This document shows, piece after piece, positions 3,278 through 47,540 of a stretch of 64,000 nucleotides of DNA. The translations under genes were made by a program, and so were the position numbers. Source of the DNA: Polytrichum commune (taxonomy: Eukaryota > Streptophyta > Polytrichopsida > Polytrichales > Polytrichaceae); contig OX485807.1 in assembly GCA_950295325.1 (NCBI GenBank), positions 48,080,440 through 48,144,439 on the forward strand, read 5' to 3'. Position 1 is the first letter of the stretch, and every line of letters starts with the position of its first letter. The notes beneath the pieces are model-generated. The model saw only the letters and a list, made by a program, of their open reading frames with translations. It had not been told where the DNA came from and did no database searches.

Positions 3278-5552
3278 ACTGTTAAAATAGTGAAGAACTA
3301 GGCAATTAGTTACTTAGAAAGGGAAACATGCAAGTAAGATAGAAGTTTCCTCGCTGCCCATAGTACCAGAGGATATCAGAAGTCATGCAATGAACATGTG
3401 ACAATTAGTGATGCATTTTTTGGTATCCCAGTTCTTAACAGATGTGACTCTTAAGTAGAGGAAGGAAGAAGACAAAAAAAAAAGAATCCAATTTTTGATT
3501 CTCCTCTCGTGAAGAGAGTGAAAGTGTTTAGCTTATTCGAACTCTCCTGATTACCGAATATAAATGGGTGTGAAACCCATAGTTTTCTTGTAAATTATAC
3601 TTGCAAATATATCAAACTGCCTTCCAATCATTTCTCTCTTGCCAAGTATGTGCTTAAGCGTTCAAAGTGTGAATCTTATGTTTGATAAAGTGTGTAAGAC
3701 TGGAATGTGAAATTATTGCAGAGGTAGGAGGCTGGTGTTTAGAGTGAAATTCACTAGAAGTAAAGAGTCATACGGTCTGAAGAGGATTGTCAGTTGTGGA
3801 GTGTGAAACTCCTACTAATCTGAAGAAAGGATTTATGATTGTCGTGAAGACATAATGAATTAAGTGCTTCTTGGACAGTATCTTGAGGTTGCAACCTCAG
3901 GAGAACGAGTTCTTGATATTTAAAGTGGTCGGGTGTGAAACCTGGGGATGCTCGGTGAGATTCATATTGACAAGTGTTGAGGACTCACTGAAGTGCTTAC
4001 TTTCTACATGTGCTCGGAGCAATTCAAATTTGTCTTAATTTGAACTCGTTTGGAAATGTTGTGAGAGCTCCAGAAGTTCATGATCAATTTGCGTTCTCAT
4101 GGACAGGATTACAAGTTCCAGAGTGTTAAAGAGTGATAAACTTCTTGAGAAGTTAAAGAAAGAGTAAGTATTAAATAGTGACATTTGTATAGACTCCCCG
4201 AGTGAATTTGTGAGGGGAATCTGATTCCAATACAAACCACCTTCCGAAGCGTGAAGCTATTATGTAATAAGAGCGATGGTTTAATTCGTATCAAACATAC
4301 CAGGAATGACTTCACTTGATTTTAGAAACCATCGGCAGATTAGCCGAGGGGAAGAATGCGTGAGTTGAGTTTGTGAGGAGCTCTACGTCATGAGAGTAGG
4401 AAACTGGAAGTGGCGAACCTTTCAATCAATAAGATGACTCTAAGTATTGATCGACCAATTACTCTCTGGGATTAGTCCAGTTAATGAGAGAGACCCCGAA
4501 TTAATCAAATCTCCCCCTGAAATCCTCAGATTCGGGAAGCGTGTTTTCTTTTAAGAACATCACCCAACTCTCCCCGTTGTCGAAATTGGCATTCCTCAGA
4601 CAAGAATTCCCCAGCATTGAATCTTGAAGGAACGAAGTCGTGGGATGAGATTCGGGTTTTTTTTCGTAACCTTGATTCACAAGAGTTCAAATTTCGCTAT
4701 TAGGACTGAGAATCTTAATTGCATCCTAGTGAACTCCACTGGTTCCTCTGTGGAAGAAGGAAAATCAACTCTTTATGACTTTGTAGTACTTGTTGAGAGA
4801 AAAGTCGTGAGCCTCTAGTAAACCAGCGAGCAATCTTGGAGGCGGTGTGTGTGTGCACGGCGAGGAATTGCTGTCTCAGATTGAATTAGGCGTAGGGAGA
4901 AACAGAGAAATGTCGGAGGAAGGAGAAATCGCGAAGTCAGGAGGAGAAGTTCTCGTCTAAAAGGAGGAGGAGCTGTGGAGTTAGGAGGAGCAACGTCCAC
5001 ACCCATATCGATTGGGATAGCCAACAAAGGCAGGTATAAAACCTATCTCTCTACAATGGCTAATGTGACTAGATGCTTCTTTGATACTCTAAGACGATTA
5101 CTGGACACTGGTTACTAGTCACTTGGAACTGGTTACTAGACGTTTCTCTGGGTACTTGTGACTGGACGCTTACTTGGAACTTGGGACTAGACTTGTTACT
5201 GTTCTGACCCGGTTCGCCTTAGACGTTTCTCGCTTTGTTCCCGGTTCGCGGCTTTGTCACTTGTAACTAGATTTTTATAAAAATTCCCTAAGTCCTAATT
5301 TTTTACAAGTATGGAAATGTGTTAAATAGTATCATTGTTTGAGTAATGAATAAATCTATTTATGATGAGTGTGTGACAAGTCAATTCACATGAAAATAGA
5401 GTTATTATAATAATTAAGTGTCAAACTCATTCCATCACCCCTTTGAACTATCAATCGACCTTATCGTGACAAACTAAAGATACATCTGACACTCATTTAG
5501 TCTTCCCTGGGTGTTTTTCAAGCTGGAACCCTGGATGAAAAAACTGACTACA
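3278..5552 (+). repeat. 5' LTR of gypsy element 1
   Basis: The 3' end is well fixed: CTGACTACA at 5544-5552 is followed by three bases and the primer site. The last 65 bp resemble the LTR end at 60530-60594. The body holds several degenerate copies of GTGTGAAACYC (near 3569, 3798 and 3929), a common LTR-internal pattern, and the TATA box at 5034-5040. No coding sequence is credible here. The 5' limit is uncertain because there is no second LTR for comparison. Confidence 0.55.
5034..5040 (+). promoter_or_regulatory. TATA box in LTR 1
   Basis: TATAAAA sits in a GC-richer context about 515 bp before the LTR end, in the place expected for the U3/R promoter of a long gypsy LTR. Transcription would start about 30 bp downstream. 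Confidence 0.45.
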
Positions 5553-5573: not shown

Positions 5574-5780
5574 AGGCTACGGTCGTCAGAATTTAGTTGA
5601 TAAGGCATTGATAAAGGTCACAGAGTTAAAACTACAAATCAAGCCAAAGTCATATTTTGCATATATAACGGTGAACAAAATAAATTGAGAATAAGTCCTA
5701 GACTATTCTTACAATTTATTTCTACCCTGATAAAGGAAAGCAATATAGACATGAGCTAAAAATTTGGGGGATGAATTTAA

Positions 5781-6765
5781 ATGTGGCCTTGGGACCCCAA
5801 AGTGAAGGGTTCCTGGAAGTGTTCAGTTGCCCTCTTCACTTTAATCGTCGAATTAAGTGATAAGGCTCAAACCAGTAACAAACCAGTCACGTCAAAGTCA
5901 AATATTCGTTTTATTGAGTGGAAACCTAAGGAAACTAACCTTAATAAGTGGAGTAGATTTCCTAGGGAGAGATTTCTAACACAAACTGTGTTTGCTCGAT
6001 CTCCATTAGAATATGGAATTAAAACCCTTCCGTTAGAAATACAACAAATTATTGTGACAAAAGTTTGGCAGAACAGAACCATCATCGAAGGTACTGAAGA
6101 CACAAAGGATTTCAGTAACTTTGAGGAAAGAGACTATCTATTAAGTCAGTAGCTTGAACATACGTTATTAGCACCAGGTGGAGAACAATTAATGAAAGAA
6201 GCTCAGGATGCGGTAAGGAGAATAGAAAATGTGGCCTTGGGAATCTATCCCGCCAAAGTCAGAAAGTTCTGACAATTGGCTTTACCAAGGCTCACATTTA
6301 TTTACCGCACTTTATCGTTTTTACAAAGCCTCTTTTTGGGGTGTAGGAATTCATATAGGACAAAATCACTCTATCTATCCTAAAGGGTTTAGAGATAATT
6401 TTCTTAAACTACCCATCCACCTCTAGTCAAAGATCTTTGAAATAGTCTGGAATCATGGTGAAGGGTTTAATGAAATTATCATAAACAATGGGTACCCAAG
6501 GTTGAGGGTGGATCTTCGATTTATGTTTTTGGTTTACAGCCAACATAAAGACGAAAATTTTCTTGCCAACAAGTTTGGGTACGGTTGTTGGAACAGTGGA
6601 ACCTTCACTAAGAAAGAGGCACGTTTTTATTACGGGCCTTTTGATCCTTATACAAGTGTGAATATCCCAGATTTCTCCGATTCTTCCTTCAAAGGCAAAG
6701 ATTACATCAATTTTGAGAAATTATGCCTACATGGAAGAAAACGGTACGTAAAATCATATAGATAA
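5781..6765 (+). pseudogene. Leader open frames upstream of gag, unrecognised
   Basis: Three plus-strand frames (5781-6152, 6229-6426, 6502-6765) lie between the primer site and gag. The first two both begin MWPW from the same repeated words (AAATGTGGCCTTGGGA at 5779 and 6228), so they may be copies of a short leader cistron. I recognise no domain. They could be an extra N-terminal gag segment broken by stops, or an accessory frame of this element family. Confidence 0.3.
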
Positions 6766-6779
6766 GTATAAAGGAACAA

Positions 6780-8909
6780 GTGAAACCATATGCATTTTCC
6801 ATACTGGAACCTGCACATGCAAAGTCTCATGCACAAACAACCTCAGTACGAAAAACAGCCAATGATAAGGCTAGAGAGGATCGTGCTGTGGCGAGAGACT
6901 ATCAGAGAAAGAAAGCGGAGAGAAATAGGGATTGGTTAAGATCTGTCATAAAGTTACACAAAGAACAAACCGATAGTGAAATAACCGAGGGAGATCACAT
7001 TCCGGTTGAGGACGACACCTCAACAGGCATATTATCACCTCTTAAATCCCAACAATTAAATTTTGGTTCAACTTCGGGAGAATCACAAAATCAATCGATA
7101 CCACCCTCTCAAGTTTTATTAATTCCGCCACCACCACCACCACCATTTCCACCACCACTTCCAATGGCGCAACCAAATCCGAATCCTCGTATTACTAATG
7201 TAGTACACATTCCTTATTTTTTAGGACGGCCAGGTGCTGATCCTGATACACATATTGCTAAATTTGAAGTAACATGTGCTGCGAATAGCATTCCTCCTGC
7301 TAAATTTCAAGAGGTCTTTGCCGCCTCTTTACAAGAAGATGCCTTCGCATGGTACTTAAGGCAACCCGCATTTGCGGATTGGAATGCATTAAAAAATGCC
7401 TTCCTGGATCATTTTCGACCCCTAGGTTTTGCTAGTAGTTTAAAAGAGAAACTACGAACCATAAGGATGGGTATAAATGAAGGGGTGGACAGCTATTACG
7501 GGCGAATGCAAGATATCCTGCAACGTATGGGAGTTCACCAAATACCTGACAACTTCCTTATGAGCATTTTTATTGGAGGGTTATATCCTATAGAGTTAAA
7601 AACATATGTGAAGGAAGGTCGTACGGCGACCTATGCGCAAGCGTATGCTCGTGCCAAAATTTGGGAGGAGTGTCGTTTGGAAGATGATTTGGTCATCTAT
7701 ACGGACAACACTTACTCAAATAACCCTATACCTCCCCATATGGGAACTTTTCCCATAACTAATCAAAACCAACATTATATAACGGATATGCATCCTTCCA
7801 CCACTTTTACCACGCCTATACTTTCTAAACCAGCCGGGATGACGTCCTCAACCCATGACCCCACCATAGCTAAACATGAAGATGCTATCATGAACTTAAC
7901 TAAACAATAATTGACAAAACTGTTAGTTAAAGTCATGAAAGGAGCACCAAAACGACCCCAAGTTACTAATGAACGCACAAATGTATGGTGCACAAATTGT
8001 AAAGGACATGGTCATGTAGCTAACGAGTGTCCTACTCCCCAAGGCATCCGAATCAAATGCACTTATTGTGGGGGTAATCACTCGGTGAGTGAGTGTTGGA
8101 ATTTGAGACCCCAGCGTTGTGTTAATCAAATTGATGATAACAGAGATCGTCCATGGCAAGAGGAAAGGTTAGGACCAAGACCAAATTCTAATTACAATCC
8201 CAAAAGAAATTTTAATAAACGGCCTGTACCTATTAATTTTCCAAACCGACCCAGCTGAGGAAGGACAAATGGTCCACCCAACTGGAACAGGCCTCCATAC
8301 AATGCTAACACTCGAAATTACAATACTGGTAATAATGATAAAAGGAAAACACCGGTCTGTTATAGATGCCAGGAGCTAGGACATTATGCCAATGAATGTC
8401 CCAACCCCAGAAAATCACAAGACTATGTTCCTTTGTGCGGTAATTGTAAAACTGCGGGTCATCCTACCGATGAGTGCCCTGAACCTAAAAAGGATGAAAG
8501 AGAGTGGAAGACAGGCAAGCATGTTCGGATCCAGGATGATAAAGAAGACAGAGGATCCAGAAATGTGAACCATGTCCAACATACGATACACCGAACTACC
8601 CCACATCCTGGTACGACTGTCAACGCGGTTACCACTCGATCAAAACGAGTAGTAGACCCCTTACCAGTCCCGGATGATAATAGTGACGAAAAGAGTTTGT
8701 CGTATGAGTCCCAAACCAATGGAGACCCACTTGTCCATGTCACCAACTCAAGTAAAAGCCAAAGGGGCGGTAAATTCGAACCCCACAGTGATACAGCCGG
8801 TGCCAGTGGTGGCACCCGTTACTCTTCCATAGAGGGACCTTCGCCCAAATTTTTCAGGAATCAGGAAGGCTCCAACCTCTATAACCAGACCCGGTCAGGA
8901 AACTGTTAA
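6780..8909 (+). pseudogene. gag: gag polyprotein with four CCHC zinc knuckles
   Basis: One reading frame runs through two in-frame stops (TAA 7908-7910, TGA 8256-8258) to TAA at 8907-8909. The N-terminal third is charged and followed by a proline-rich run (near residues 117-130). The retrotransposon gag core follows (HIAKFEVTCAANSIPP, AFAWYLRQ, LKNAFLDHFRP). Downstream come four zinc knuckles: CTNCKGHGHVANEC, CTYCGGNHSVSEC, CYRCQELGHYANEC and CGNCKTAGHPTDEC, the second with one residue fewer before its His. The product would package RNA and form the particle. Both stops can be explained by a single C-to-T change (CAA to TAA, CGA to TGA). Pol lies in the +1 frame relative to gag. Confidence 0.85.
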
Positions 8910-8979
8910 GTTACCCCCTTATAAAGTAATTAATATAGGAAGTAGTAGCAAGAAGACTACCTCCCGGAGAACTCGGGTA

Positions 8980-10896
8980 ATGGAGCTAGCCACTGGATTA
9001 CATCAATATGACATCATTAGCGATTTAGATAATATTAGACCACAAATCACTATGAGACAGTTGCTAGCTATAGCCCCTCATTGTAGGAGTAAGTTAAGTT
9101 CGTCCATGATAAGAAAGAAACCAAAGATGGTAGATATTCATGACGTAACACTAAGTAAGGATCCTGGTGCTCCTGCAGTGGATGTTACTATTGACGGTGT
9201 ATTTATACCTGGATTCCAGGTTGATACAGGGTCAAGTGTTAACCTCATGAGTGTGGAAACCTTAAATGAATTAGGAATAACTAAAATGAATCCAACACCG
9301 ATTATCCTAAAAATGGCAAACCATACCCGCACTAAACCATTTGGAGAACTACCCCAAGTATCAGTAATAGTTGCCGGAAAAGAATATAAAATCAACTTCA
9401 TTGTTTTCCGAACCTCGGATGCCGTGCAACCTATACTTGGCATCCTAGGGCGTCCATGGTTAATCCTTGCCCAAGCTAAAGAAGATTGGGGTAAAGGGAC
9501 TTTAACCTTAGGACGTGGGTCCGAGAAAATGATTCCGCCATTGTTTCCTACTAAATATCAAGGAGAAACCCAAGACGATGGTACAGAATTTTCTTCGGAT
9601 GAGTCTGATTCTGAGACTGACTATGCACTTAGCGAAGCCATTCATAACGTCAAGAGTCATTCCGATATAGTCTCATTGGGTATGGGAGAATATTATTTTC
9701 CTTTAGGTGACGAAGATTCGGATGACGCAATTCTTCAGTGGCAAAAATCAGTGTGTAATATTGTCACTACGATTGCCCCAGACATGGATCACCCACCTCA
9801 ACCTCTTGATAAAGGAAAAGCCTCCCCTTATAAAAAACCGGAAGTACCACTAGCTTCTGAGGAGGACTGGGAAGATGCCATGTTTTCATCTTCCACTCCT
9901 ATCAAAAGTTATGTCTCTAAGGATGTGTGTAAAGAAATGAATTTGGGTACGGAGGAAGCTCCCAAAATCATTAAAATTTATGAGAAAATTTCTTACACCG
10001 AATGGAAATATTGGTATAATTTCTTTAAACGAAATATACATGTATTTGCATGGACCTATAAGGATTTACGCGGTGTACCACCGGAGGTATGCGAACACAA
10101 AATTGTGTTAGAAGAAGGTGTTGCCCCGGTGAGACAAAGACAATATAGAATGAACCCTAAATATTCTCTTTTAATTAAAGAAGAAATTGATAAGTTATTA
10201 GAGGCAGGGTTCATTTACAAAGTTCCTTATAGTGAGTGGGTTTCACCCATCATTGTTGTATCCAAGAAAAATGGGAAATTACGGATTTGTCAGGATTTCC
10301 GTAGATTAAATAGTGTCACTAGAAAGGATTATTTTCCACTCCCTTTCACTGACACTATGTTAGATGCGGTATCGGGTCATACAACCTATTCGTTCATGGA
10401 TGGATTTTCCGGGTATAATCAAATTCAAATCTATGAACCTCATCGTTGGTACACTACATTCACCACTGATTGAGGGACCTTTGCATACATGGTTATGCCA
10501 TTTGGTTTATGCAATGCTTCCGCAACATTCCAACGCGTAATGACCGAAGCATTCCAAGAATATTTACGGAAGTTTATGGAAATATTTTTGGATGACTTCG
10601 CGGTCTTTGGAATTATGGAACAACATGTTGATTATCTACAAAAGTGTTTTGATAAATGCATGGAATTCGGTATTTCCATAAACGCGGCCAAATCCGCCTT
10701 CCTCGTTCCCTTTGGCAAGTTAGTGGGGCATATTGTGTCTGAGAAGGGAATAGCTACGGACCCGGATAAAGTCACTATTATTGCATCCTTACCAATTTCC
10801 ACTACGATTTCAGAAGTAAAAGAATTTCTTGGCCATACAGGTTATTATCGCCGCTTTATTCATAAATATGCTATTATAGCAATGCCTTTAACATAA
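8980..10896 (+). pseudogene. pol: pol: aspartic protease and reverse transcriptase
   Basis: The protease active site VDTGSSVN lies at residues 81-88 from the Met at 8980; an open frame extends upstream of that Met (KLPPYKVINIG), so the true start is probably a gag-pol fusion. The reverse transcriptase fingers and palm show RICQDFRRLN and SFMDGFSGYNQI (first catalytic Asp). A TGA at 10471-10473 replaces the expected Trp before GTFAYMVMPFGL, and the frame continues to FLDDFAVFG, the YxDD-equivalent box. TAA at 10894-10896 replaces a probable Gln. Both stops fit single C:G to T:A transitions. All catalytic residues I can check remain, so decay looks moderate. Confidence 0.9.
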
Positions 10897-11724
10897 TTAT
10901 TAAAGAAAACAGATACACCACCGGTATGGACGACAACATGCACTAATGCTTTTAATACTCTAAAAAGAAAATTAGTGACTGCCCCCATATTAATACCACC
11001 TAATTGGGAGAAAGACTTCCACATATATGTGGATGCCTCCAACGTGGCCATAGGGTCAGTTTTGAGCCAAAAGGATGATAAAGGGCGTGATCACCCGATA
11101 TATTTCGCGAGTCGTCAATTAGTGCAAGCTGAAAAAAATTACTCCGTCACAGAACGTGAGGCATTAGGTATGATTTTCTCAGTACAAAAATTCAGACATT
11201 ATTTATTGGGAAATAAGATGATTTTTCATGTTGATCATGACGCCTTAAAATACATGGTAAATAAACCACAATTAAGTGGGCGTATTGCGCGATGGATATT
11301 ACTTTTACAAGAATTCGACTTCACTGTTGAAGTTCGTCCTGGTAAAAGTTATGCCAATGCTGACCACCTGTCACGTCTAAATGAGGAATTAGATGACGAA
11401 CCCATTGATGATTCATTCCCCGATGCACAATTATTCTTTGTTGACGTTATACCTCCCGAATATGCTGAAATAATTACTTATTTACAAACTGGTATATTTC
11501 CGGAAGAATATAATGAAAAACAAAAACAAAGACTAGCTTATAAAGCAGGGCCATATACAATAATTGCCGATACCTTGTATAAGCAAGGAAAAAATGGTGT
11601 TCTTCGACGTTGTATTACAAGCTCAGAAATTCCCCAAATTTTAAAGGCATGTCACGATAACCCGGCCGGTGGACATTTCGCGGGAGATGTCACCGCACGC
11701 AAGATATTACAATCAGGTTATTGA
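10897..11724 (+). pseudogene. pol: pol: RNase H and start of integrase
   Basis: The frame is continuous with the RT segment. IYVDASNVAIGSVLSQ carries the first catalytic Asp, YSVTEREALGMI the Glu and FHVDHDALKYM a further Asp, typical of the gypsy RNase H. ADHLSRLN marks the RNase H end, followed by a linker and the integrase H-H half of its zinc-binding domain (CHDNPAGGHF). TGA at 11722-11724 interrupts the usual Tyr-Trp-Trp-Pro block at a Trp codon. Confidence 0.85.
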
Positions 11725-12288
11725 TGGCCGACACTATTTGCGGATTGCACTACCTATACTCGGCAATGTGATTTGTGCCAACGAATAGGTAAACCTACTA
11801 CCTCATCCGCTATGCCTCTTACACCAATTTTAGCGTTAGCACCTTTTGAAAAATGGGGTATAGATCTCGTTGGTCCTATCAACCCACCTAGTCGACACGG
11901 TTGTCATCGTTATATTTTAGTAGCTACGGATTACACTACAAAATGGGCGGAGGCCGAAGCCACTAAAACTAATGATAAAGTAATTGTTGCCAAATTTCTT
12001 CGTGAAAATATTATGGCACGTTTTGGTTGCCCTAAAGAACTTGTGAGTGATAGGGGTACTCATTTTGTCAATGATGTTATTGAGGAATTAACTTCAAAAT
12101 ATAAAATCAAACACCAATTAACTACACCCTACCACCCACGAGCTAATGGTCAAACTGAAAAGACTAATGGCATTTTATGCAAAATTATTACTAAGACGGT
12201 CCAAGGGTCTATGACTGATTGGGATACTAAATTGATTGATGCATTATGGGCATACCGGATGGCGTATAAAATTACTATTAAGTTGTGA
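11725..12288 (+). pseudogene. pol: pol: integrase core, truncated
   Basis: This follows the TGA in frame: WPTLFADC then QCDLCQ completes the HHCC domain. The catalytic core shows WGIDLVGP, LVSDRGTHFVND and ANGQTEKTNG (D, D, E). The reading is cut after AYRMAYKIT. The homologous fragment at 49052 continues into FTPFQLVYG and a GPY-like module, so at least the C-terminal domain is missing here. The break coincides with TGTGAGG, the start of LTR 2. Confidence 0.85.
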
Positions 12289-17818: not shown

Positions 17819-18158
17819 ATCTCAATTCACAAGTTAGGATTGTTTTGGTTCCAAGGCTGGTGTGTTTGCGCTTAGAATAGGTTGTATGTTTAGGTTCGAA
17901 CTAGTTATGAAATTGATTAGTGAAGTTTAGAGCCACAATAGCAAAAAACTAACGTCCAACCTCCGAAGATACAACAATGCATATTTAATTTTCCTTAAAA
18001 ATCTAACTACTCACGTTATACTCATATCATCTGGGTTCGACTTGGGCACGTGCAAGTGCATACCACCTTTACCAACAGGCTTGTGTGATACTTTTAGGCT
18101 CCCTCGGAAGGGGGTGGCCCAAAACCACCACATAGTGATGGGTCTTTTTTAGTCCCAA
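17819..18158. other. Short remnant after LTR 3, no gene
   Basis: No open frame with a recognisable motif. This is probably the stub of the retroelement's internal region or the MULE promoter area. Confidence 0.35.
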
Positions 18159-21100
18159 ATGCAAGCTTCAACTATTATATTGACAAACCAATCTGGCGCA
18201 TCCACAATTCAAATGACAGATTTTCCAAATGTTAAATTGGAGCGTGATGATAATGTTGTGTGTATATTATCAGATTCTGATGATTATATTTGTGCAACCG
18301 TTCATCTGTCGAACAGATCGTCATTTTTTAAAAAATATTCCTTATCAAGTTCTTTGCATGCATCCAAATCCTCATGTATTCCTTTGTCCAAAAAGTTTGT
18401 TTGTCGCGACACACCTTTTCAACATCCTCCACTACACTTTTCGCCTTCATCTATAGGGTTGACTATCATTGATGCCTTGAAGTTCACAAAGTCTAGGAAA
18501 TGTCAAAGTCGGATCTTGCTTCAATTGATTTTGAAAATATAGTGGTTCGCGATGTTAAGTACTTACCATCTTCTTTCGATGGTGATATTTTATTTGTCTT
18601 ACCCCTTGTGCCACTTGGAGTTCTAAGTGCATATGGCTGCTCAATGGATGGCATGGACAAGATGTGCGATGGCCGCCCTTGGTGTACCACCAAAACCACA
18701 AATATCCAAAACGACTTTGGATTGTCCTTTCGACGATCTACTTGTGCAGGTCATCTCTAATGTCAGAATGATCACTGCGATTACATGCATCGCAATGGAG
18801 GTATGTGCAATAGTACTGAGTGAGCAAGTTCAGCTCATCTTCCATTTGTTATGGGTGATGTTGCCCCTGCTAGATCTACTTTTGAGTGTAAGATATGCTG
18901 ATCACCACCTATGTGCATTGCTTTGTATCATGCTTGCATATTTTATGTCAACTCCACATCTACTAAGATGTCAAGGGCTTGCATTCATCTTGGTATGCAT
19001 GATCACCCTATATACAATGGTGTATGTCGTGAATCATTAGACATGGCATACCACTACGTTGCAAATGAAGTGTTGAAAACACCCACCGCAACAAATTCAA
19101 CTATTGTTTTGGGTGCAAGCAAGCAATTATTGGCCGATTATCTTCTCAAATCTCCTACTATTGGTGAAGGCCATCACCGAGTTGGTTTATCATTAGAGGT
19201 GGTCATGGACAAATTCAGTAATCTTGCATTCCCAAATTGTCGTGATTTTGTATCTGGATCAAAATGCTTTGTGCGTAGTGGAATGAAACCTATGAATAGT
19301 ATTATGGCACTTAAAGACCATTCTACTTTCAAGTTTGTCCATGGCAGTCGGTTCCCAGAGCAATCAAAAGACAAAGTGTTTGTTTTCAAGATGTCCGTGG
19401 ATCTTCCAGGTAGTGGTGTGGAGCTTGTAAAAAGAATGCAAGTTGGGCGGGATATGGAGAACTCTTGGATTATGTTTGACCATGTAAAACGTATGAAAGA
19501 TTGAACAACAATGGCTTGTCTTGTGTACGATAGTCGATATTGTAAAGTGTTGACCATTGCGTGTTGTGACATGCAATCTAAGGATGATACATCATAAACT
19601 CTCTTTTGGAAAAATTTGAATGTTGTAATGGCAGAGAATGGTGTTTCAAAGGTAAATTTTAAAGGGTTCATGGCAAACAATGCTCAAGCTAGTTGGAATG
19701 TGGTGAGGATGATTTATGATGATGGTGATCCAACTTTGTCCATGGTCGCACGTGAGCGTTGATGCCTTTTTCATTGGTCTGTAAGTTTGGATAAGGTGAC
19801 ACAAAATTATATCAACCCATTCTTGCAATTTCAACACAAACAACTTTGCAAGGATTACAAAGATGCAAAAACAATGGACGATGTTGAAACTAAGTACTAT
19901 GTCATTCGTTCTTGGTGGTTGTCATTCGGAGCTGCCACAGAGGAAGGCATCCTCGGCCTTTCAGAGTGGTTGGGATTTTGGCATTTTTGTTACAGACAAT
20001 GGGGTGGTCACATGTTACTTATAAGTGCATAGTAATCTACATTATTCAATGTCATTGAGTTTTTATTTATTTATTTTATTTCTAACATATCTATAATTCA
20101 TTTTTTCTAACCCTATACTTATGTGTGGTTTATAGGATATGACAATCGAAAAACGTGCAGAAATGCCAACATGCAACCTTGCAGAAATTGTACACAAAAA
20201 ATGGCTCCAACAGTCCGGCAACATGCTGACTTGTTTATATGAAGCAACAGTGGATGACATGATTCGTGCCTTCATGTAAATTGCAAATTATCGGGCATGG
20301 TTGAAAGGGGGATTAGATGGTAAAGGCCCGGATTCTGCATCCTTGAAACTCAAAGCAGCTGCTAGGTGTGGGGATCGAAAAATGTTGGCTGATGCTATGA
20401 AGTCTTACCTAGGGGCAGAAGACGCCAATACCAGAGATTGTGCATTAGAAGGGTCTGAGTTATTTAGATCCACCAAACGAAAATTCAACCTTCTACCCGG
20501 TGCCGATTGCGACTCTCATCGACCCGACAAAGTGAATTATTCCATTCCTCGTCCTAATACCCGGACAACTCGCCAACGCATAGAGGAATCGTTGATTTTT
20601 GCAGAGCATGTTGTGGTTCATACTACATCTATGTTAGAGACTGAATGTTTCGTTTCCAATTGGCACATTGTAAGATTACCACCCAACTCAGCTAAACGAT
20701 GTTGGGCATTGCAAGCCATTATAGGGACTATGTGCAATGCCAAAGTCGGGAGCAGCAAACATGACACACCTGCACCAACATACAGAGGGCTCAAGAAGAA
20801 ATTTTGTTCTACCAACAATGTGGAGTATGAATTTTGGTTTTGCCCTGATGACATCAAGCGTTGTGTAAGTGGTACTAAGAAGAAATATGTGTTGGATTGG
20901 CCTACAGTGCCCAACACTTGGCCAGTGAAGATGGGTACCAATCTATCAAGAGAGGAGGTGTTGGCACTGGAGGACGCCAATTTTCAACTATAACAAAGGG
21001 AGGCATTGTCCCCTTGTCGTAGGCTTTCAACAATACCAACCCTTCCTATCCCTCGCTCGCATTTTTGTATGCCAGTGAACCCGAATGCCCACCCTACATT

Positions 21101-21503
21101 CAGGTTTGGAAAGTCAATGCGTCATAATGCAACATTACCGACGGCAGATCAAAAAAACAAATGGGAGAACGCTGGACTCATGGACGGTTACTATGTGGTT
21201 GGTGTCACTGCCATTCCATATGCATGCTATGGAGTGATAATCAACATTGTCTCCAAAGAGGATATCACATACCCCATCACAATTGGCGACATCCCGCATT
21301 GCACATGTCTAGACTTCACGAAAATATCTTCTCAAGCATTGGGAAAGAAAAGGAAATGGGTGTATTGCAAACATCTTTATTATGTCTTTAGATTTTTGTG
21401 CAAGGTGGATTATGAGAGTGATAAGTTCATTCATGTACCTACATATACGTACAATGAGATTATGCGCCTACTTGAATTTGGTGGTGTTGTAGAATGTGAG
21501 TAG
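18159..21503 (+). pseudogene. MULE-type transposase with SWIM zinc finger
   Basis: The plus-strand pieces form a single protein in order. An N-terminal part has a SUMO-interaction-like VVCILSDSDD (about 18263-18292). A segment with RACIHLGMHDHPIYNGVCRES follows, then a DDE-like core (MFDHVKRMKD; FKGFMANNAQASWNVVR; CLFHWSVSLDKVT). After a likely GT/AG intron near 20030-20136 comes a C-terminal part with a SWIM finger (HCTCLDF at about 21299, then YCKHLYYV near 21367), the zinc finger common in Mutator/FAR1-type transposases. Stops interrupt it: TGA 19502-19504 at a probable Trp codon, a TAA at about 19595 at a probable Gln codon, a TGA near 19760, TAA 20277 and TAA 20991. The probable second catalytic Asp in FMA(D) reads Asn. 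The protein would cut and join element ends in the nucleus, but this copy is dead. Confidence 0.7.
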
Positions 21504-36825: not shown

Positions 36826-38275
36826 TAGTGCATGTAGTAGATTACCGTTGGGCAAGGCTTGGGATTCATGACATTTACGTCAACTCATTCATCATAGATG
36901 AAGGGGCACCAGTAAAAAAAATCCCTAAATCAAGATCGAGGGCTAATTCATTCCAAATTTGACACCACTAGACAAATATGGTGTTTCTTACTCTATTATT
37001 AAATTCAAATCAATTTAAAATAGACACTTACAAGTTATTATACAATTCACTGCATTTTCACCTTCACACTGGATGAGTTTACATAGACACCACACATCCC
37101 TAGCTGTTGGGTGGTGAGGTTCTTAGTATATCAGAAAGAAGTGCACTATCTACTTAAATATACGCAACTAGGAGCCTAAATAATGCTTACACCGGTCTAA
37201 AATTCAATTAGTGTGTACATAACCAATCTCGGGGGGTTCACTCCCTCTTATATTTTGCATACACGTGCATTCGGGACCTATTTATTGGGGGGGTTATTTA
37301 TCTTGCAGAATATATTATAAGGTGATGGTATTTTACATGTAAAAAACCTGAAAATATTATATGTGATGGTATTTTGCATGTAAACATGTTTCATTATTTT
37401 AAAATCCCTTATTTTACATGTACATTTTTTACAAAATTTGTCTACAATGAATATATTGGACCCTCTTTTTTATCGCACGTTGTTCTACGATTTTCGCCAG
37501 TGCACCCCCCGAGTAACCAATTCACAGTTTTGAGATTTTCAAATTTGTGGTCCACACAAATCATCTTAGAAGTCAACATTTTAAATTCTGATACTGAGAT
37601 AAATCATTCAATGAAAGTCATGGTTGTTTGCCGGTTTTATCGAATCCATTGGATCCAAAATATTAAACATTGTGAAGTAACGTGAGACCGGGGATTTGTG
37701 ACAACCATGTTAGACTTTAGTTAAAGGTGAAAGCATTGGGAAGTTGTTATAGCTCAAATTATTCATTTCTAGCAGATAATAGATTCAATCGCATCATTAG
37801 CACCAACTAAATGGGTCCAAGCATGGTAATGTAAACACATATTGTTTCTTGTCAATAATGTTATACTAAGTAATTTGAGACTTTTCATTGTCTCAAATTA
37901 ATATAAGGATGCCAACAACATGAAGTCACCCTAAACATAGGCTACGGCATATAAGCAAGCTATATATTATTAGTCCAATCTCAAAGTTAATGGTTGGTCA
38001 ATATAAGCACATTAGATAGAGCACTTGAAACCTACTACAACATAAAATCAAAAGAATACATGCATATTAAATACCAAATCTTTCAGCTTACAAAATTACA
38101 GCATTGTAATAAATGCATATTGATTGCAATATAGGAGTTTTGTCCCAAACAATATTTATTTATTTATTTACTGGATATTATATATAATTATTCATCCAAA
38201 CCCAAACATAATATGATTTGTAAGTCACCCAAAGTCTAGCCCAATTGCATTGAACGTACAATGCACATAGACTTA
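36826..38275. other. No gene recognised
   Basis: AT-rich. A 24-bp phrase (GTGATGGTATTTTACATGTA and variant) occurs twice, at about 37322 and 37364. The 103-codon plus frame at 37374-37685 has no motif. Confidence 0.45.
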
Positions 38276-40329: not shown

Positions 40330-40494
40330 CGAAATGGGCTTGCCCTTTATTGCTCATTTTTAACTTAGTTCTCACAAACAATACGGGATAACTCTTTATT
40401 CTAGTTCTACAAGCCTTGTAGGTTTATTACAACCTTATTCTTTCTAGCATTACATTTCTATGACTACAAACGATCTAATGCTCCAACTTCAACA
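40330..40494 (-). repeat. Copia-type LTR fragment, minus strand
   Basis: The minus strand begins TGTTGAAGTTGGAGCATTAG at 40494 and contains GAGTTATCCCGTATTG, matching the LTRs at 33646 (minus) and 41457 (plus). It abuts the plus-strand RT fragment without spacer. The inner limit is approximate. Confidence 0.55.
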
Positions 40495-41409
40495 ATGTGG
40501 ATGATTTGATCATATTGGCAAGCAATGTAACCCAATTGAATTGGCTCAAATTGGAGCTCAAGAAGGAATTTGATATGAGCAATCTCGGAGAGTTGCATAA
40601 TTGCCTAGGAGTGGAATTTGAGAGGAATAGAGAAGCCCATACCATCACCATGAACCAAAGGAGCTATATCAGGGAGGTCCTCAAGCGTTTTAACATGGAA
40701 GAATGCAAACCGGTTGGAACTCCATTCGATGCGAATTCGAAGTTGTGAAATCTTTCGGATGAGGAATTTGAGAATGTGCAAAAGGGAGATGGAAGGTGTT
40801 TCATACAAGGTTGGGGTGGCATCTTGCATGTATGCAATGATGGGTATGAGGGCCAATATTGCATTTGCGGTAAGTATGGTGAGCCAATTTATGTCAACGG
40901 CATGTCTACCGCATTGGATGGCCGTGAAACGCATCATGAGATAATTAAAGGGCATTTTGGAGTTCAATTTATACCTCGAAGGCAAGGATATTGCCTTAAG
41001 AGGATTTTGTGATATGGATTGGGCGGGAGATGGAAATGACCGGCAATCCATAACGGGGTATGTTTTCCTTGTTAGTATTGGAATCATTTTGTGGAAATGC
41101 AAGAAACAATCAACCATTGCATTGTCCACTGGTCATTACAAGAAGAAAGTGGTTTGGCTTAGCCAACTGTTGGCGGATGTGGAATACAAGCAAGAAGGAC
41201 GGATATTCATCATGTGCGACAATCAAATATGCATAGCACTTGCAATAAATCCCACACACCATTCTCACACCAAACATATTGACGTACAACATCACTTCAT
41301 TACAAAGAAACTAGAAAACCAAGAGATATGTTTGAGGCATTGTCCAACAAAGGATATGATGGCAAACATACTGACCAAACCACTTGCAAAGGATAGGCAT
41401 CCAACATAA
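40495..41409 (+). pseudogene. pol: Ty1/copia RT C-terminus and RNase H, broken
   Basis: It opens inside the RT active site (VDDLIILASN), continuing with LGVEFER and MNQRSYIREVLKRFNM. A TGA at 40746-40748 and frameshifts follow. RNase H segments are recognisable: IAFAVSMVSQFMS, FCDMDWAGDGNDRQSITGY, IMCDNQICIALAINPTHHS and the terminal KHIDVQHHFI, DMMANILTKPL. A deletion removes part of the EAEY region (STGHYKKKVVW). The order and the final HIDVQHHFI box define copia. The left part of pol is missing, cut at the LTR junction at 40494. Confidence 0.9.
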
Positions 41410-41730: not shown

Positions 41731-41852
41731 TAGCCTCACCCACAATGCAAACGAGTGTGTGTACAAGAGGCATGAGTCACAAAGACCTTGAGAAAGGAGA
41801 TACATGGTGAATCAAGTACAACCCTAATCCAATCGTAGGCCAAGAGGGTAAC

Positions 41853-41870
41853 CAGTGTTCAAGATTGAAG
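41853..41870 (+). repeat. hAT left terminal inverted repeat
   Basis: CAGTGTTCAAGATTGAAG is identical to the reverse complement of the right end. The 8-bp target duplication lies immediately outside. Confidence 0.95.
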
Positions 41871-41992
41871 TCTTCAATGCCCTTCAAACGCAATTTGGCC
41901 CTTCAAAACTCTCAAAACAGCCCTTCAAAATGCAACCCCAAACTCAAAATGAAAACTTCACTTGACGTCCTCAAAATTTTTACACCCGTCAA

Positions 41993-42010
41993 CACTGTAG
42001 CGCTACAGTG
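41993..42010 (+). repeat. 18-bp perfect palindrome in hAT subterminal region
   Basis: CACTGTAGCGCTACAGTG is followed at about 42021 by another half-site CGCTACAGTGAC. It may be part of the transposase-binding or regulatory region; this is inferred from position only. Confidence 0.7.
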
Positions 42011-42265
42011 ACGAGGAGGTCGCTACAGTGACAACCTCAACACCTAGCAAATGATTCATTCAACATCGATCTGACTTGGAATTCAACTTTTTATGTCTTG
42101 CAAAATATTGGAATCCAACCCTTTCTTTGGTAAGCATTGAGTCAGTGTTGTAGTGTGATGTGATTCAATCAATGTGAAATCAGTGTTGATTTGGGTCTAC
42201 AAATTTAAAGGTTTGTGATGTAATTCACAGGCTAATCACGAATGAATGTTTTTTGTGGGGTGAAG

Positions 42266-42388
42266 GCCAGCACACTGGTAGTGGTGGAGCATGATGGTGG
42301 GGTTCTGAAAGGATCATCAATTAGTGCAATTGCAGCTGCGAGTGCATTAAGGGAAGGAAGCACAATCCAAGCTCCATCCAGCTATTGA
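42266..42388 (+). pseudogene. Captured ETF alpha subunit fragment
   Basis: After a possible AG acceptor the frame reads STLVVVEHDGGVLKGSSISA and then IAAASALREGST before a TGA at 42386. This resembles the N-terminus of mature electron transfer flavoprotein alpha (STLVxAEHxGGxxKxxSLxA...AA). ETF alpha passes electrons from mitochondrial dehydrogenases to the ubiquinone pool. Only about 35 codons are kept, so no function is expected. It lies inside the hAT element in the transposase orientation. Confidence 0.55.
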
Positions 42389-42470
42389 TAAGGTACTGAT
42401 TCAGGCTTTGAAATGTTGTTGTTTACAATTATAGCTCTGGCTCCTTAAGGATTTACACCACTTTTGAGGA

Positions 42471-42598
42471 TGAGCTTCTTAGGTTATACACTATTTTTAA
42501 GGGTGAGAGTGAAATTTGTTGCATCTTTTAAGCATGAGCTTCTTAGGTTAAACACCACTTCTAAGGGTGAGAGTAAAGTCTGTTGCATTCTTGTGCCA
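42471..42598 (+). repeat. 64-bp tandem duplication inside hAT
   Basis: TGAGCTTCTTAGGTTA at 42471 recurs at 42535. Both copies continue into AAGGGTGAGAGT and GTTGCAT. Non-coding. Confidence 0.75.
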
Positions 42599-43270
42599 GA
42601 GACCGGTTTCGTCATCTTATTGTGAATGCAACTGATCAAATTGATGAATTAGGTTATTATTTAGATATCTAATATAGCATGTCCTTCATAGGTCGGCTAT
42701 GCATCTCTTGTGTGGATGGACTAGTGAAGTTCTGAATCTCTGTTATCTTTGAGGTCTCCAGTGAAGTATATGCATGCATGTCATTTTGTGGCTGGATGCA
42801 TGTGAATTTTAGCCAGTCATGGAGATGTATAAGTTAGGGTTGCAAACTCAGTTTGAGTGGCTCTTGGCAGTGATGAGGAGGTGGTCCGATCAGACCAAAT
42901 CTAAGACGAGAGGTAGGTGAGATATTACAGTGGATGTGGACTAGAAAAAGCTCGGCAGTTCATGATGTTGCTTTGCCCACTCAATGTGCCTCGTGAAGAA
43001 GATTCAGGGGGTTGTGTTATGTATGTTAGGGTTTTGGGTAATATATTCAAGAAAATTTTGGACTTATGTTGAACTCAAGAAAATGGGTGTCAAAAAGGAA
43101 ACATGACGTTGTCATTGTTTGAGATGGTAGGAAAACTTGAGTGAAGTTACGAGTGATATTTCTGTAGTTTGTGTTTTGTTCTGACATGAAACCGCTTTGC
43201 CATGTACTTTGCTATGTTATTTCAGATGAAAAATTATTCCAAATTTGTGTCTGTTAATGCTCTTTGACAG

Positions 43271-43707
43271 GAAGAGTTTCAGCTTGCCCTCTTCAAATGT
43301 CCCTCAAGTGTCTTGTTTTTGGCCCTTTAAATGTTTTCCTATGCTCGGGTTTATTCCACCTTTGACCCAAAAACAAATCTGTATCGTTGGCTTGGCAGGT
43401 TTTTGATTTGTTTGATGTGAAGCAAAATGGAGTGATTGAATTTGGAGAATTTGTGCATTCTCTCAGTGTCTTTCATCCTCATGCTGATTTGGAAGACAAG
43501 ATACAATGTAAGCCTCTTCACATTCTTTCTAAAGTTTCTATGGTTTACAATGCAATCCTCTGGTTGTAAAGAGTCACGTGATGATAGTATGCAAGTTAGA
43601 CCAAACTTGTACTCACTAGCACTGAATAATGATTTTTTCTTCTGATGGATACAGTCGCATTTCACCTCTACGACCTGCGAAAAACTGGCTACATTGAACA
43701 AGATGAG
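43271..43707 (+). pseudogene. Captured calcineurin B-like (CBL) exons with introns
   Basis: Three consecutive exon-like blocks are kept. The first, at 43271 after GACAG, gives EEFQLALFK and then decays. The second, 43399-43507, gives [19 protein letters not shown] then SLSVFHP and DKIQ. The third, 43655-43707, gives AFHLYDLRKTGYIEQDE. The junction 43507/43655 splices with GT/AG to restore Phe in frame (DKIQ-F-AFHLYD), and the last exon ends GAG|GTACC. Two 12-residue EF-hand loops are visible ([12 protein letters not shown] and DLRKTGYIEQDE). CBL proteins sense calcium and activate CIPK kinases. The N-terminal myristoylated part and the C-terminal EF hand are missing, so this is a transduplicated fragment taken from genomic DNA, since introns remain. 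Confidence 0.85.
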
Positions 43708-43935
43708 GTACCTTCACTACCCTACAAAATTGATCTCACAATGGATCGTTACCTGTTAGACCACCATCTTTCTTTCTCCAAGTTATTTCCTGCACTTTAT
43801 TTTTGCTTTTGTGTGGGTGGAACTTTTCATGTGAACTTTGCAGAGTGGGGGAGTGACTTACATCAGAAGCAATTACAGTTGTAACTTGCCGATTAGCATC
43901 AGTGCTTCTGATGAAAAACACACGGTTCTTATCAG

Positions 43936-44497
43936 GTACACGTTGGCATGGGGGGTGCAGAGCACATTCTGAAAGAGATTTTACCTTGTGGCTGCGAGGT
44001 GCCATCTTCATTTGAGACGATCGGTAAGTCATGTGGAGTGAATACATTACTCACTTGAAGTCCACTCTTGGATACGTATCTGAGACTACATGTTTATTAT
44101 ACAAAGGTTGTTTACTGTAGGATGTGCTCACATATTTGCTCTTAGAGATCCATAGTACATACTTGAGACTTGAGGTTATGGTTATAAAAAAGAAAGAGAT
44201 TCTTGGGTGTTTTTGGGTATCTGTCTTTATAATGAATAGATTGAGGATCAATTCTGTGGGCCAAAATGACCTCAGGACTCTATATTTTGTAGTGCTAACA
44301 GGCTTTCTCTTGTGTCATTCGAAGAGGACAAGTAAAGGATGTTTGGAACATGAACTTTCTGCATGCCTCCTCTTTTTGAATGAGCAGAAATATTATTATT
44401 GTCCATTTTCTTTGAAGCCAATTGTGTTCATTGTTTGTTGCAATGCCAATGTTTGCAGAAGAATCCAAAACTGAAGACGGTGGTGAGCAATCAATGA
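43936..44497 (+). pseudogene. Captured Trm5-like tRNA methyltransferase exons
   Basis: The exon 43936-44023, bordered by ATCAG and GTAAGT, reads [21 protein letters not shown], split here as [10 protein letters not shown] and [11 protein letters not shown]. This matches the conserved pre-catalytic segment of Trm5 ([14 protein letters not shown]). A second block at 44459, after TTTGCAG, reads KNPKLKTVVSN, corresponding to the DKNxxxKTVVNK motif. The exon between them is not apparent, so part is lost or diverged. Trm5 methylates G37 of tRNA. It follows the CBL piece by only 228 bp and has the same orientation. A stop is reached at 44495-44497. Confidence 0.6.
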
Positions 44498-45070
44498 TAT
44501 TGTGTGTCACTGCAGCTTAGAGTTAGATTATTGATTGACTAGAGGCAGTAGGTAGTCTTGAAAGCTTAGGTTTCACTGATGAGGGGAGATTTTGGCTTGG
44601 TGTTCTTCTCCCTTGAGTGCTGCATTTTATTAAATCGTTTGGAGTCACAGCTGTAGGTTGTGGAGAGATGAAAATTGAAAAACCTTCAAGGTTGAGAGGT
44701 TGTACAGTCAGTGAAGTGCTTCAGTTGTGGGATGCAGTTTGTAATATAATTCATCTTTTTTCTTTTGTTTTTTCTTTTACCGTTTCCAGGCTTGAGATCA
44801 GCTACACCGTCACCACTGAGGTGGCATGTTTGAGGACAATACCTATATAGAGGTTGGATTAGCAAGGTACTAATTGACTTTGACAATAATCTCATGTTAC
44901 TTCTTTGGTTAACTACGGACATTTAAGTCTGGCTACCTTCATTGAACAAATTGATGTGCATTTGTAAACTGATTTACTAGGATCTATAGGTCATAAATGT
45001 TTATGAATATACCTACAAAAAATAATGTGATCTACAATGAGATAAAAAATGCAATGATCATAATGTTTGG
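44498..45070 (+). other. hAT internal spacer, possible further captured piece
   Basis: A 77-codon frame (44617-44850) and an acceptor-like TTTCCAG before GCTTGAGATCAGC (about 44790) suggest another exon fragment, but I cannot identify it. The transposase promoter would have to lie here or further upstream. Confidence 0.3.
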
Positions 45071-47302
45071 TTGGTGTGTCCAGAATTTGATGGCCTCAAG
45101 TTCACGAAGAGGGGGGGTCGTCCATCGTGGGATGCACGTCAACTGGATCTCAACTTTTGTTTTGCTAGATCCGACTCTAGAGAGTCCACGGCGATCAACG
45201 AAGAAGACTGTAATATGGACGTGGAGGTTGATATCAAAAACACACCAGATGCAACTGAAGTGACTTTGTTGCCAAATTCATCTAGAGCTTTGATACGAAA
45301 ATTCAACAATAAATGGAAGATTGGTCGCCGTTGGTTGTATTGGTCCAAACCTCCTCATGGTCCAGTTACTGGAGTGATGAAGTGCGAAGCTTGTGAGGAA
45401 TTCAAGCTTGGTGGAAGGGGATCTAAATCATGGGGTGGGAATGGATGTTCAACTATTCAACTCTCTGCAATTAAACAACATGAGAAATCTGATGATCACA
45501 AATGGAGCTACACACGATGGATGGCAAGGCATTATCCTAGGACTGGAGGACCAGTTACGCCAATTGAACCAGGTCTCCAGAATATGGTGGATCGTGAAAA
45601 GGGCAGAATTCTCATTGTCATGAAACTCTTGTATTTTGTTGTTTATAATGATCTACCATTGTTACATTATGTTGAACAATGCAAGATTCATATGCTCCTC
45701 TCTACTCCGGATATGCCTACCAATACAGAGTATTCGTCTTATACAAATGTCACTGCAGCAATGGGCTTTTTGGATGCTATATCTCAACATTTAAGTTCCA
45801 ACCTTGTTCATGAAGTAAAACGCAGCTCTATATACTCAATATTGATTGATGAATCAACTGATCATACATGTGAACCTCATCTAATAGTATACATTTGTTA
45901 TTTGACGGGAGGAGGTTTTGATTCGCCATGTGTACAGTTTGTGGAGCTCATGCCTCTCTCACGCGGAACTGGGGAGGTTATGTTTGAATGCATCAAAAGT
46001 TTGTTGGTCAGACTTGGATTGGATTTACAGAAACTAGTGGCTATAGCTACTGATGGTGCATCTTGTATGACTGGAGTGCACCAAGGTGTGGTGGCTCGAC
46101 TTCGTGTATTGGTACCTCATCTTGTTGGAACACATTGTACTGCTCATCGTGAGGCGCTAGTTGCGAAGGATGCGAACAATGAATTTTTGTGCTTGGGATT
46201 TATTGATCGGGTGGCCAATATGGTGTACGAGTGGTTGGGTAAATCAATAATTCGTCGTGGAGTTTTGGAGAAATTATTGCTTGCATTCCGTGAAGAGTCC
46301 CGTGCAGCTTTACAGATCCATTCGGTGAGATGGTTATCCCGTGGCTTGGTCATGGAGAGATTGGTATTTTGTATGCCTGCAATTTTAGAAATTTGGGAGG
46401 TTGAAGAACCCACATGGTACAAGGATCTAACTTCTCTTCAGTTCCAATTTTTCATTCACATGCTAGCTGATATATTATCAGAGTTGAATAAGGTCAATCG
46501 CAAGTTTCAATTTGATCTTGTAGATATCACTAGCATAGCTTCTACGATTGATGTAACAATCAGCTTGTTTCATAGACACTATCTGGGTGTAAGTTTTGGC
46601 CTGACAACCAAACACCTAGGAAAGCTTCTCCGCGAGGTGGTACCCAATGGGCAGATATTGTATGTTGATAGTTTTGGGTGTGAAAAAATGCATATCTTGC
46701 ATTATGATTCCATGCCCGAGTGTGACGTAGGAGGCTCATTGGAGGCATGCATCATGTTGGGGAGGCAGTATGTGCAGAAGATCATCGATTCACTCAATGA
46801 TCGATTTTCTGACTTGTCCATTTTCAATGCGGCCCGGCTTTTTAGCCCGAAGCACTATCCCGTAGATGAATTGGACAGAGGGACATTAACGGAACAATGG
46901 TTGAACCGGTTGGTGACACATTTCCGTTGGAGCGATGACCTTGTTAATCAATGCAATGCGGAATTGCTAGAATTCGTGGAGATGTTATGTTCCGTTTGTG
47001 AACGCCGAAATATGCAAGAAGCTTGGGTTTTTTGTGGCAATGACCGGGAGTTCATGATTAATTGGCCAACTATGATGTCGCTATGGCAAGCCATACTTGT
47101 GATCCCAACTAGCACTGTTGTTTGTGAGCGTGGTTTTTCAAAGCAAAATTGGGTTAAGAGTGAAAGGAGAACTAGACTCAACCTTGACACACTAGATGCT
47201 TTACTGAGGGTTAGTCTAAATGGGTTAGGAGTTGAATTCATGGATTGGGATAATATTTTTGAATCTTGGAAAATTGGCACAAGAACCAACAAGCGTAGCT
47301 AG
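45071..47302 (+). CDS. hAT-family transposase, intact 743-residue frame
   Basis: A single uninterrupted frame from the Met at 45071. A BED-like zinc finger lies at residues 105-143 (C105-x2-C108, H137-x5-H143). The RNase H-like core shows YSILIDESTDHT (D260) and VAIATDGASCMTG (D328), then CTAHREALVAKDA and a conserved RWLSRG block. The C-terminal hAT dimerisation region is near residues 675-725 (LVIPTSTVVCERGFSKQNWV, RTRLNLDTLDALLRV). The overall pattern resembles the KIAA1586/ZNF862/C17orf113-type hAT proteins. It would bind the element ends in the nucleus and excise them. The start is the first in-frame Met; an upstream exon is possible because 45011-45070 holds several alternatives. With perfect ends around it, this copy is a candidate autonomous element. 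Activity cannot be judged from sequence. Confidence 0.9.
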   Translation: MVCPEFDGLKFTKRGGRPSWDARQLDLNFCFARSDSRESTAINEEDCNMDVEVDIKNTPDATEVTLLPNSSRALIRKFNNKWKIGRRWLYWSKPPHGPVTGVMKCEACEEFKLGGRGSKSWGGNGCSTIQLSAIKQHEKSDDHKWSYTRWMARHYPRTGGPVTPIEPGLQNMVDREKGRILIVMKLLYFVVYNDLPLLHYVEQCKIHMLLSTPDMPTNTEYSSYTNVTAAMGFLDAISQHLSSNLVHEVKRSSIYSILIDESTDHTCEPHLIVYICYLTGGGFDSPCVQFVELMPLSRGTGEVMFECIKSLLVRLGLDLQKLVAIATDGASCMTGVHQGVVARLRVLVPHLVGTHCTAHREALVAKDANNEFLCLGFIDRVANMVYEWLGKSIIRRGVLEKLLLAFREESRAALQIHSVRWLSRGLVMERLVFCMPAILEIWEVEEPTWYKDLTSLQFQFFIHMLADILSELNKVNRKFQFDLVDITSIASTIDVTISLFHRHYLGVSFGLTTKHLGKLLREVVPNGQILYVDSFGCEKMHILHYDSMPECDVGGSLEACIMLGRQYVQKIIDSLNDRFSDLSIFNAARLFSPKHYPVDELDRGTLTEQWLNRLVTHFRWSDDLVNQCNAELLEFVEMLCSVCERRNMQEAWVFCGNDREFMINWPTMMSLWQAILVIPTSTVVCERGFSKQNWVKSERRTRLNLDTLDALLRVSLNGLGVEFMDWDNIFESWKIGTRTNKRS

Positions 47303-47514
47303 GGCATTATCACTAGAAGAGGTGGAGTTAGATGGTTGATTCTTAATTCTTCACATTGTATTGGAAGCATGCACCATATAAATCATGCATAAGTTTAATA
47401 TGAGTTTTTAATATTTTATTTCTATATTACTGAATTGACGTCTTGAATTTGAACTAGCCTTTCAACCAAAGGGCTCAAATTTTAGAGCCCTTCAAAATGA
47501 AACTCATATGAGGG

Positions 47515-47532
47515 CTTCAATCTTGAACACTG
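47515..47532 (-). repeat. hAT right terminal inverted repeat
   Basis: Reverse complement of CAGTGTTCAAGATTGAAG, followed immediately by the second AGGGTAAC at 47533-47540. A hairpin-like GGGCTC/GAGCCC pair lies just inside (47471-47490). Confidence 0.95.
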
Positions 47533-47540
47533 AGGGTAAC

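Follow-up and report, generated by a model that had tools for sequence, protein, structure and literature searches.

The analysed stretch, called here the window, comprises 64,000 nucleotides of a Polytrichum commune contig (C5, 52.9 Mb). At window positions 41853-47532 lies a 5,680-bp hAT element that encodes a transposase and, between its left end and the transposase gene, carries captured pieces of the host genes CBL and Trm5 together with a piece resembling ETF alpha. Comparison of the terminal sequences defines perfect 18-bp terminal inverted repeats (TIRs) at 41853-41870 (forward strand, starting CAGTG) and 47515-47532 (reverse strand). The repeats are flanked at 41845-41852 and 47533-47540 by an identical 8-bp target-site duplication (TSD, unstranded), AGGGTAAC. 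These ends and the duplication agree to the base with those reported in a first-pass annotation of this DNA. The 18-bp repeat conforms to the definition of a hAT TIR as at least 8 bp starting with (T/C)A(A/G)NG, and it departs from the longer consensus [T/C]AGNGNNG at its eighth base (both definitions are from the portion of PMC6027215 at hand). The motif GCCCTTCAA occurs five times in the window, and four of these copies lie just inside the two ends of the element, a placement that would be expected of subterminal motifs. Three of the four fall within the left end (41853-42196, forward strand; element positions 1-344), taken as the longest left part retained in the deletion derivatives that were fetched. 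The window contains no other pair of 18-bp inverted repeats with 8-bp duplications. With repeats of 10 bp instead, 20 simulated windows together produced two pairs, and one pair beyond the hAT element is found in the real window. A chance origin of the ends was rejected on this comparison. Viral contigs were also searched for relatives, with no match.

The transposase frame runs uninterrupted for 753 codons from stop to stop (45041-47302). From its first ATG at 45215, it encodes 695 amino acids (45215-47302, forward strand), as established from the open reading frame, Pfam matches, and conserved residues. The 743 codons of the first-pass annotation therefore do not correspond to the length from ATG to stop. 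Pfam identifies a zf-C17orf113 zinc finger (45371-45529, forward strand; E 7.6e-12) and the C-terminal dimerisation region expected of hAT transposases (Dimer_Tnp_hAT, 47063-47206, forward strand; E 8e-6, with a score of 26 bits where the cut-off is 21.4), and a match to DUF4371 falls under its cut-off. With Hermes residues D180, D248, R318, W319, and E572 as the reference, taken from a published survey of plant hATs, the five essential residues correspond to D212, D280, R372, W373, and E638. Further conserved residues are C308, H311, F641, S642, and an arginine 14 positions after the glutamate, all being positioned by motif reading rather than by structural alignment. A single-sequence structure model examined for the RNase H-like fold was unusable (mean predicted local distance difference test score, or pLDDT, 33.6), and there was no relevant PDB sequence match. 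The start codon at 45215 is tentative because three sister copies of the element (L014, L015, and L016) have an in-frame ATG upstream of it, giving proteins of 706, 706, and 760 amino acids, respectively.

Captured gene fragments and their donors

All gene pieces point in the same direction as the transposase, as had been noted at first pass, and thus lie on the forward strand. Two separate stretches of the element derive from the CBL gene. The first (42935-43835) extends from intron 2 of the donor into the very start of exon 6 and is about 92% identical to a donor gene on contig C1. Relative to that donor, an internal deletion of about 274 bp has removed the last part of exon 3 together with most of the intron that follows it. 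Complete exons 4 (109 nt; 43399-43507) and 5 (53 nt; 43655-43707) are supported by their GT/AG borders, a PDB match, and comparison with the donor, and the latter comparison also reveals the first 26 nt of exon 3 (43271-43296), which measures 60 nt in the donor. The three intron-separated exon blocks claimed for CBL are thus present. The top PDB match for the fragment is CBL4 (E 1.2e-22), with 37 of 54 residues identical. The second stretch (44491-45002) corresponds to the 3ˊ flank of the same C1 gene with 90% identity.

When the CBL sequence was used as a query, it matched three hAT copies (the window's and two on contig C3, 98-100%) and one further locus, the parental gene on C1, at 92% identity (4 of 4 candidates scored). 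This locus was read as a complete eight-exon gene from MGCFHSKQ to the stop codon by alignment with an Arabidopsis CBL4 sequence. Its exons of 60, 109, and 53 nt match the pieces in the element. No numbers for CBL exon sizes were found in the literature, and the donor gene settled them. The 3ˊ-flank sequence begins about 70 bp past the CBL stop codon on C1. In all six full copies of the element, it is present upstream of the transposase, either whole or from 44570 on, with the shorter part in L016 and L017 and two pieces in L018. This flank appears to have moved from the host to the element, and not in reverse, because the C1 stretch contains no other match to the element. Identity to the donor is similar for the introns of the first stretch (606 of 654 positions) and for the 3ˊ flank (462 of 512), which would allow for either a single capture or two of similar age.

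A perfect 16-nt inverted match was also observed between the end of CBL exon 5 (43697-43712) and the transposase gene (46111-46126). Pairs of this kind appeared in 2 of 400 simulated elements, and this match was one of many features examined.

The Trm5 piece (43834-44490) sits between the two CBL stretches. It is 93% and 89% identical to a donor on contig C2, of which it lacks 206 bp, including one exon. Comparison with the donor locates exon parts at 43936-44023 and 44459-44482, the latter encoding KNPKLKTV. The fragment itself was recognised by no library searched, and a literature motif search was without result. Its identity was settled by the C2 locus found with the Trm5 query, for which 8 of 8 candidates were scored; the reading frames of this locus match the Pfam family TRM5-TYW2_MTfase at 3.7e-25. 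The proposal of a Trm5-like methyltransferase fragment is thereby borne out, and its parental gene is located.

The ETF-alpha-like exon piece (42260-42392) contains a frame change and a stop codon. Its similarity is consistent with the proposed ETF alpha fragment (11 of 27 residues identical to human ETFA), but it is weak, with a Pfam ETF match (E 0.0064) under the curated cut-off. No match was found in PDB, NCBIfam, or plasmids. On sequence grounds, capture from an ETF alpha gene is probable. The surrounding segment (42015-42654) is common to L014, L015, and L018. Other cargo features include two tandem 64-bp units that are 86% alike (42461-42588, forward strand) and, at 42655-42934 on the same strand, material of unassigned origin that copy comparison shows to be mostly common to L014 and L015 and that has no match in the CBL donor stretch.

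Sister copies, deletion derivatives, and the surrounding window

The genome search covered a 408-Mb assembly of 64 contigs, and 40 of the 910 first-look candidates obtained with the transposase query were scored. Among these, the whole query is present at no fewer than six places with 97-100% identity. The six full copies comprise the window's element and another on C5, two on C3, one on C1, and one on C2, the five further copies being 97-98% identical to the window's element across the transposase region. The frame is uninterrupted in the window's copy, L014, L015, and L016, whereas L017 has a one-base deletion and L018 has a stop codon. The 8-bp TSD expected of a hAT element is perfect in four full copies (the window's, L014, L016, and L017).

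The other 34 scored places match only the 3ˊ part of the transposase query. Ten of these were fetched, and nine proved to be two-ended elements of 1,373-1,602 bp, all with a perfect 8-bp TSD. Each of these deletion copies consists of 176-344 bp from the left end followed directly by about 1.2-1.4 kb from the right end. For the tenth, L027, a left end was not found. An autonomous element accompanied by internal-deletion derivatives is the usual picture, as in Ac and Ds. L023 also contains a second element (positions 5618-7697; 2,080 bp), which has the same ends and flanks that are alike at 7 of 8 positions, about 150 bp from one deletion copy of the hAT family.

The first-pass annotation had suggested looking for copies with the same ends and varying cargo, and at least five more full copies of this type exist. 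CBL exons are present in three of the six full copies, the ETF-alpha-like segment in four, and some Trm5 sequence in four, and two copies carry other material instead. L014 and L015 have the cargo set of the window's element plus an insertion of about 410 bp. L018 combines the ETF-alpha segment with a 1.54-kb block that is common with L016 and L017, and of the Trm5 segment it carries just the later portion. L016 and L017 are without ETF-alpha, CBL exons, and Trm5, and in these copies the 1.54-kb block follows a stretch with a thioredoxin-like peptide. The best PDB match of this peptide is TXNDC5 (E 0.0085), and Pfam gave a single, unrelated match at 0.089. The peptide, at element positions 201-488 of L016, is one we take to be a plant QSOX, which suggests that another copy may have captured a further host gene.

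Several other insertions and elements were observed. In L014, the insertion of about 410 bp (element positions 2702-3112) is bounded by inverted ends of 42-48 bp and a probable 9-bp duplication, and L018 carries an insertion with 30-bp inverted ends and tandem repeats at element positions 3515-4819. Elsewhere in the window, the remains of a retrotransposon with several broken frames (6762-12285) have Pfam matches to gag, protease, reverse transcriptase, RNase H, and integrase in an order that fits Gypsy. A Copia-type reverse transcriptase remnant (RVT_2, 1.3e-16 for 40479-40745) and the frame that follows it, which has no Pfam match, together span 40479-41406 and end about 0.4 kb before the hAT element. 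At 37228-37513 there is a 286-bp candidate small transposon, whose inverted ends of 10 bp read CTCGGGGGGT and whose two 8-bp flanks are both TAACCAAT; pairs of this size came up twice in the 20 simulated windows. Long open frames of no clear family cluster at 18153-21500, where a weak glycosyltransferase-2 match (0.0023) is below the cut-off, and this cluster could be an old gene or element.

Origin and fate of the cargo

The element captured its CBL and Trm5 pieces: the donors reside on separate contigs, introns are retained, and sister copies carry different cargo. The gene-capture interpretation of the first-pass annotation is therefore supported for these two genes. It would have failed if the pieces were contiguous in the host or if no other copy had both the ends and the transposase. 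The locations of the donors on C1 and C2 indicate that the pieces are not contiguous host sequence, and sister copies with both features exist. We are confident in a broader reading in which the element is potentially autonomous and belongs to a recently active hAT family, and in which its ancestor captured CBL, Trm5, and probably ETF-alpha, with the cargo later being reshuffled.

The most likely route of capture is break repair with template switching. A double-strand break within the ancestral element, caused by excision or by fork collapse, might have been repaired by copying from other chromosomes through microhomology-guided template switches. Genomic CBL and Trm5 DNA, and probably ETF-alpha DNA, would thus have been taken up between the left end and the transposase. 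The enlarged element would then have transposed by ordinary cut-and-paste, and cargo might afterwards have been reshuffled among sister copies. The location of the donors on different contigs and the retention of introns favour genomic DNA over RNA as the template. Four junctions were read base by base, and each has a short overlap that is common to both templates: AA between CBL and Trm5, TTG at the Trm5 deletion, CAA between Trm5 and the CBL flank, and TCAA at the CBL deletion. Breakpoints of animal Pack-TIR elements are described as having microhomology of 1-36 bp (median 2), for which gap filling or template switching at stalled forks (the FoSTeST model) is proposed, and the authors of a study on maize invoke repair errors following excision (PMC8277862 and PMC3260210, respectively, in the portions available). 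We infer the order of the capture events and the present mobility of the element.

Several points weigh against this account. Overlaps of 2-4 nt are weak evidence that is also compatible with end joining, and a smaller junction in CBL, the fifth (element position 1361), is outside the set that was read. The ETF-alpha piece has a weak similarity as its basis, and the donors located are those of CBL and Trm5. L015 is without a TSD, and L018 has a TSD matching at 7 of 8 positions and a changed right tip, so some copies are not clean insertions. Finally, the ratio of nonsynonymous to synonymous differences per site (pN/pS) in the transposase is 0.41-1.02 in those copy pairs that have differences, 14 of 15. 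Purifying selection is at most weakly indicated by these values, and strong selection is without support.

The cargo could alternatively have arisen by fusion of neighbouring insertions, whereby two hAT copies flanking host DNA move as a unit (Catoni et al.; Gisby and Catoni). This model has been proposed for plant Pack-TYPE elements, hATs included, in the accessible text of PMC8903248. L014 and L015 are about 70 kb apart, which fits local hopping, and the internal and 3ˊ-flank stretches of CBL may be one block that was cut up later. However, fusion predicts the uptake of neighbouring DNA, whereas the CBL and Trm5 donors are on different contigs. The fetched donor stretches (9.5 kb for CBL and 9.9 kb for Trm5) have no hAT match beyond the cargo, and no internal remnants of hAT ends were found above 30 shuffled controls. 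Because the donors are unlinked and no internal ends are left, fusion fits less well than break repair, and we consider it unlikely. Another possibility is that the cargo entered as a fragment carrier of the Helitron or Pack-MULE type that inserted into the hAT. Several fragments on the same strand are also typical of Helitrons and count in favour of such a nested element. However, TIRs and a TSD, which Helitrons lack, bound the unit as a whole, and the cargo has no Helitron-like 3ˊ end (a hairpin plus CTRR) on either strand. Its one nested TIR and TSD candidate compares with 0-5 in 10 simulations. Moreover, Trm5 sits exactly between the two CBL stretches with overlaps of 2-3 nt, and cargo has been exchanged piecewise between copies, both of which argue against a nested carrier. 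This origin is barely credible.

The cargo fragments are probably passengers. In the window's copy, exon 3 of CBL is truncated, one exon of Trm5 is absent, and the frame of ETF-alpha is disrupted, so that this copy cannot yield intact host proteins. It is nevertheless conceivable that splicing joins the exons of the cargo to the transposase and that the product has some function, either as a chimeric CBL-Trm5-transposase protein or in the control of the donor genes. If the 3ˊ-most bases of the ETF-like piece, exons 4 and 5 of CBL, and the Trm5 exons are connected at predicted splice sites, they form an open reading of 98-106 codons that continues into the frame preceding the transposase ATG, and the same upstream frame is read in L015 and L018. 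However, this open frame came from 127 exon combinations tried, the stretch from the predicted acceptor to the ATG has a coding signal no higher than random open stretches, and the upstream reading is in another frame in L014 and L016. Without a coding signal, and with the frame kept in only some copies, a chimeric protein with a cargo-derived N-terminus was not adopted, and function of this kind is very improbable. We propose only tentatively that this family is a lineage in which the transposase-bearing copies do the capturing themselves. In this reading, a single early event placed the CBL 3ˊ flank immediately upstream of the transposase, for whose gene it may supply a leader or promoter, and later template switches repeatedly exchanged other pieces of host genes next to it while the element stayed mobile.

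Relation to known gene-capturing transposons

The published systems compared here are described as in the portions of each paper at hand. The first-pass annotation regarded a transposase-bearing hAT with intron-containing fragments as unusual. However, the grapevine family Hatvine-6/hAT-6_VV (Benjak et al. 2008; PMC2528002) has been described with this anatomy, and so the Polytrichum element is not new in kind. Hatvine-6 elements have a shared transposase and TIRs, whereas the remainder is often unique or in few copies and often matches grapevine introns or exons. Among 35 elements with more than 90% of the transposase, 17 have potentially functional ORFs. As in that family, the Polytrichum copies have common ends and transposase with cargo that varies between copies. 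The likeness is one of described anatomy. The Hatvine-6 TIR and TSD are listed as 13 and 9 bp, compared to 18 and 8 bp in the Polytrichum element. In addition, the Polytrichum element has two donors, their internal deletions, and four junctions at base level.

The maize elements Ds2-22 and Ds-l4-354 are likewise hATs in which fragments of host genes, introns included, have been copied from a different chromosome (PMC3260210). They are described as nonautonomous, whereas the Polytrichum element carries a transposase frame of its own. Pack-TYPE elements, including Pack-hAT, similarly hold captured coding DNA between TIRs, but are defined as non-autonomous (PMC8903248), whereas the transposase frame is uninterrupted in four of the six full copies of the Polytrichum family. 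In the Pack-TYPE pipeline, a transposase match is enough for an element to be classed as autonomous (PMC8903248), and an element such as this one would therefore not be counted as Pack-TYPE. Animal Pack-TIR elements (PMC8277862) have short breakpoint microhomology for which template switching is proposed, as is the case here. Many of them are single-copy and biased to nearby donors, whereas the two donors of the Polytrichum element are on other contigs.

Most descriptions of gene capture concern elements that lack a transposase, and transposase-bearing ones are set aside by at least one automatic survey method (PMC8903248). The capture of unlinked genes by DNA transposons is considered still partly open in a 2026 review (PMC13317346). 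With copies that have uninterrupted frames, deletion copies, cargo variants, and two donors in one genome, the steps of capture can be placed in order in Polytrichum commune. The same hAT family can be used to test gap repair, as proposed for animal Pack-TIR elements, against the fusion of neighbouring insertions proposed for plant Pack-TYPE elements.

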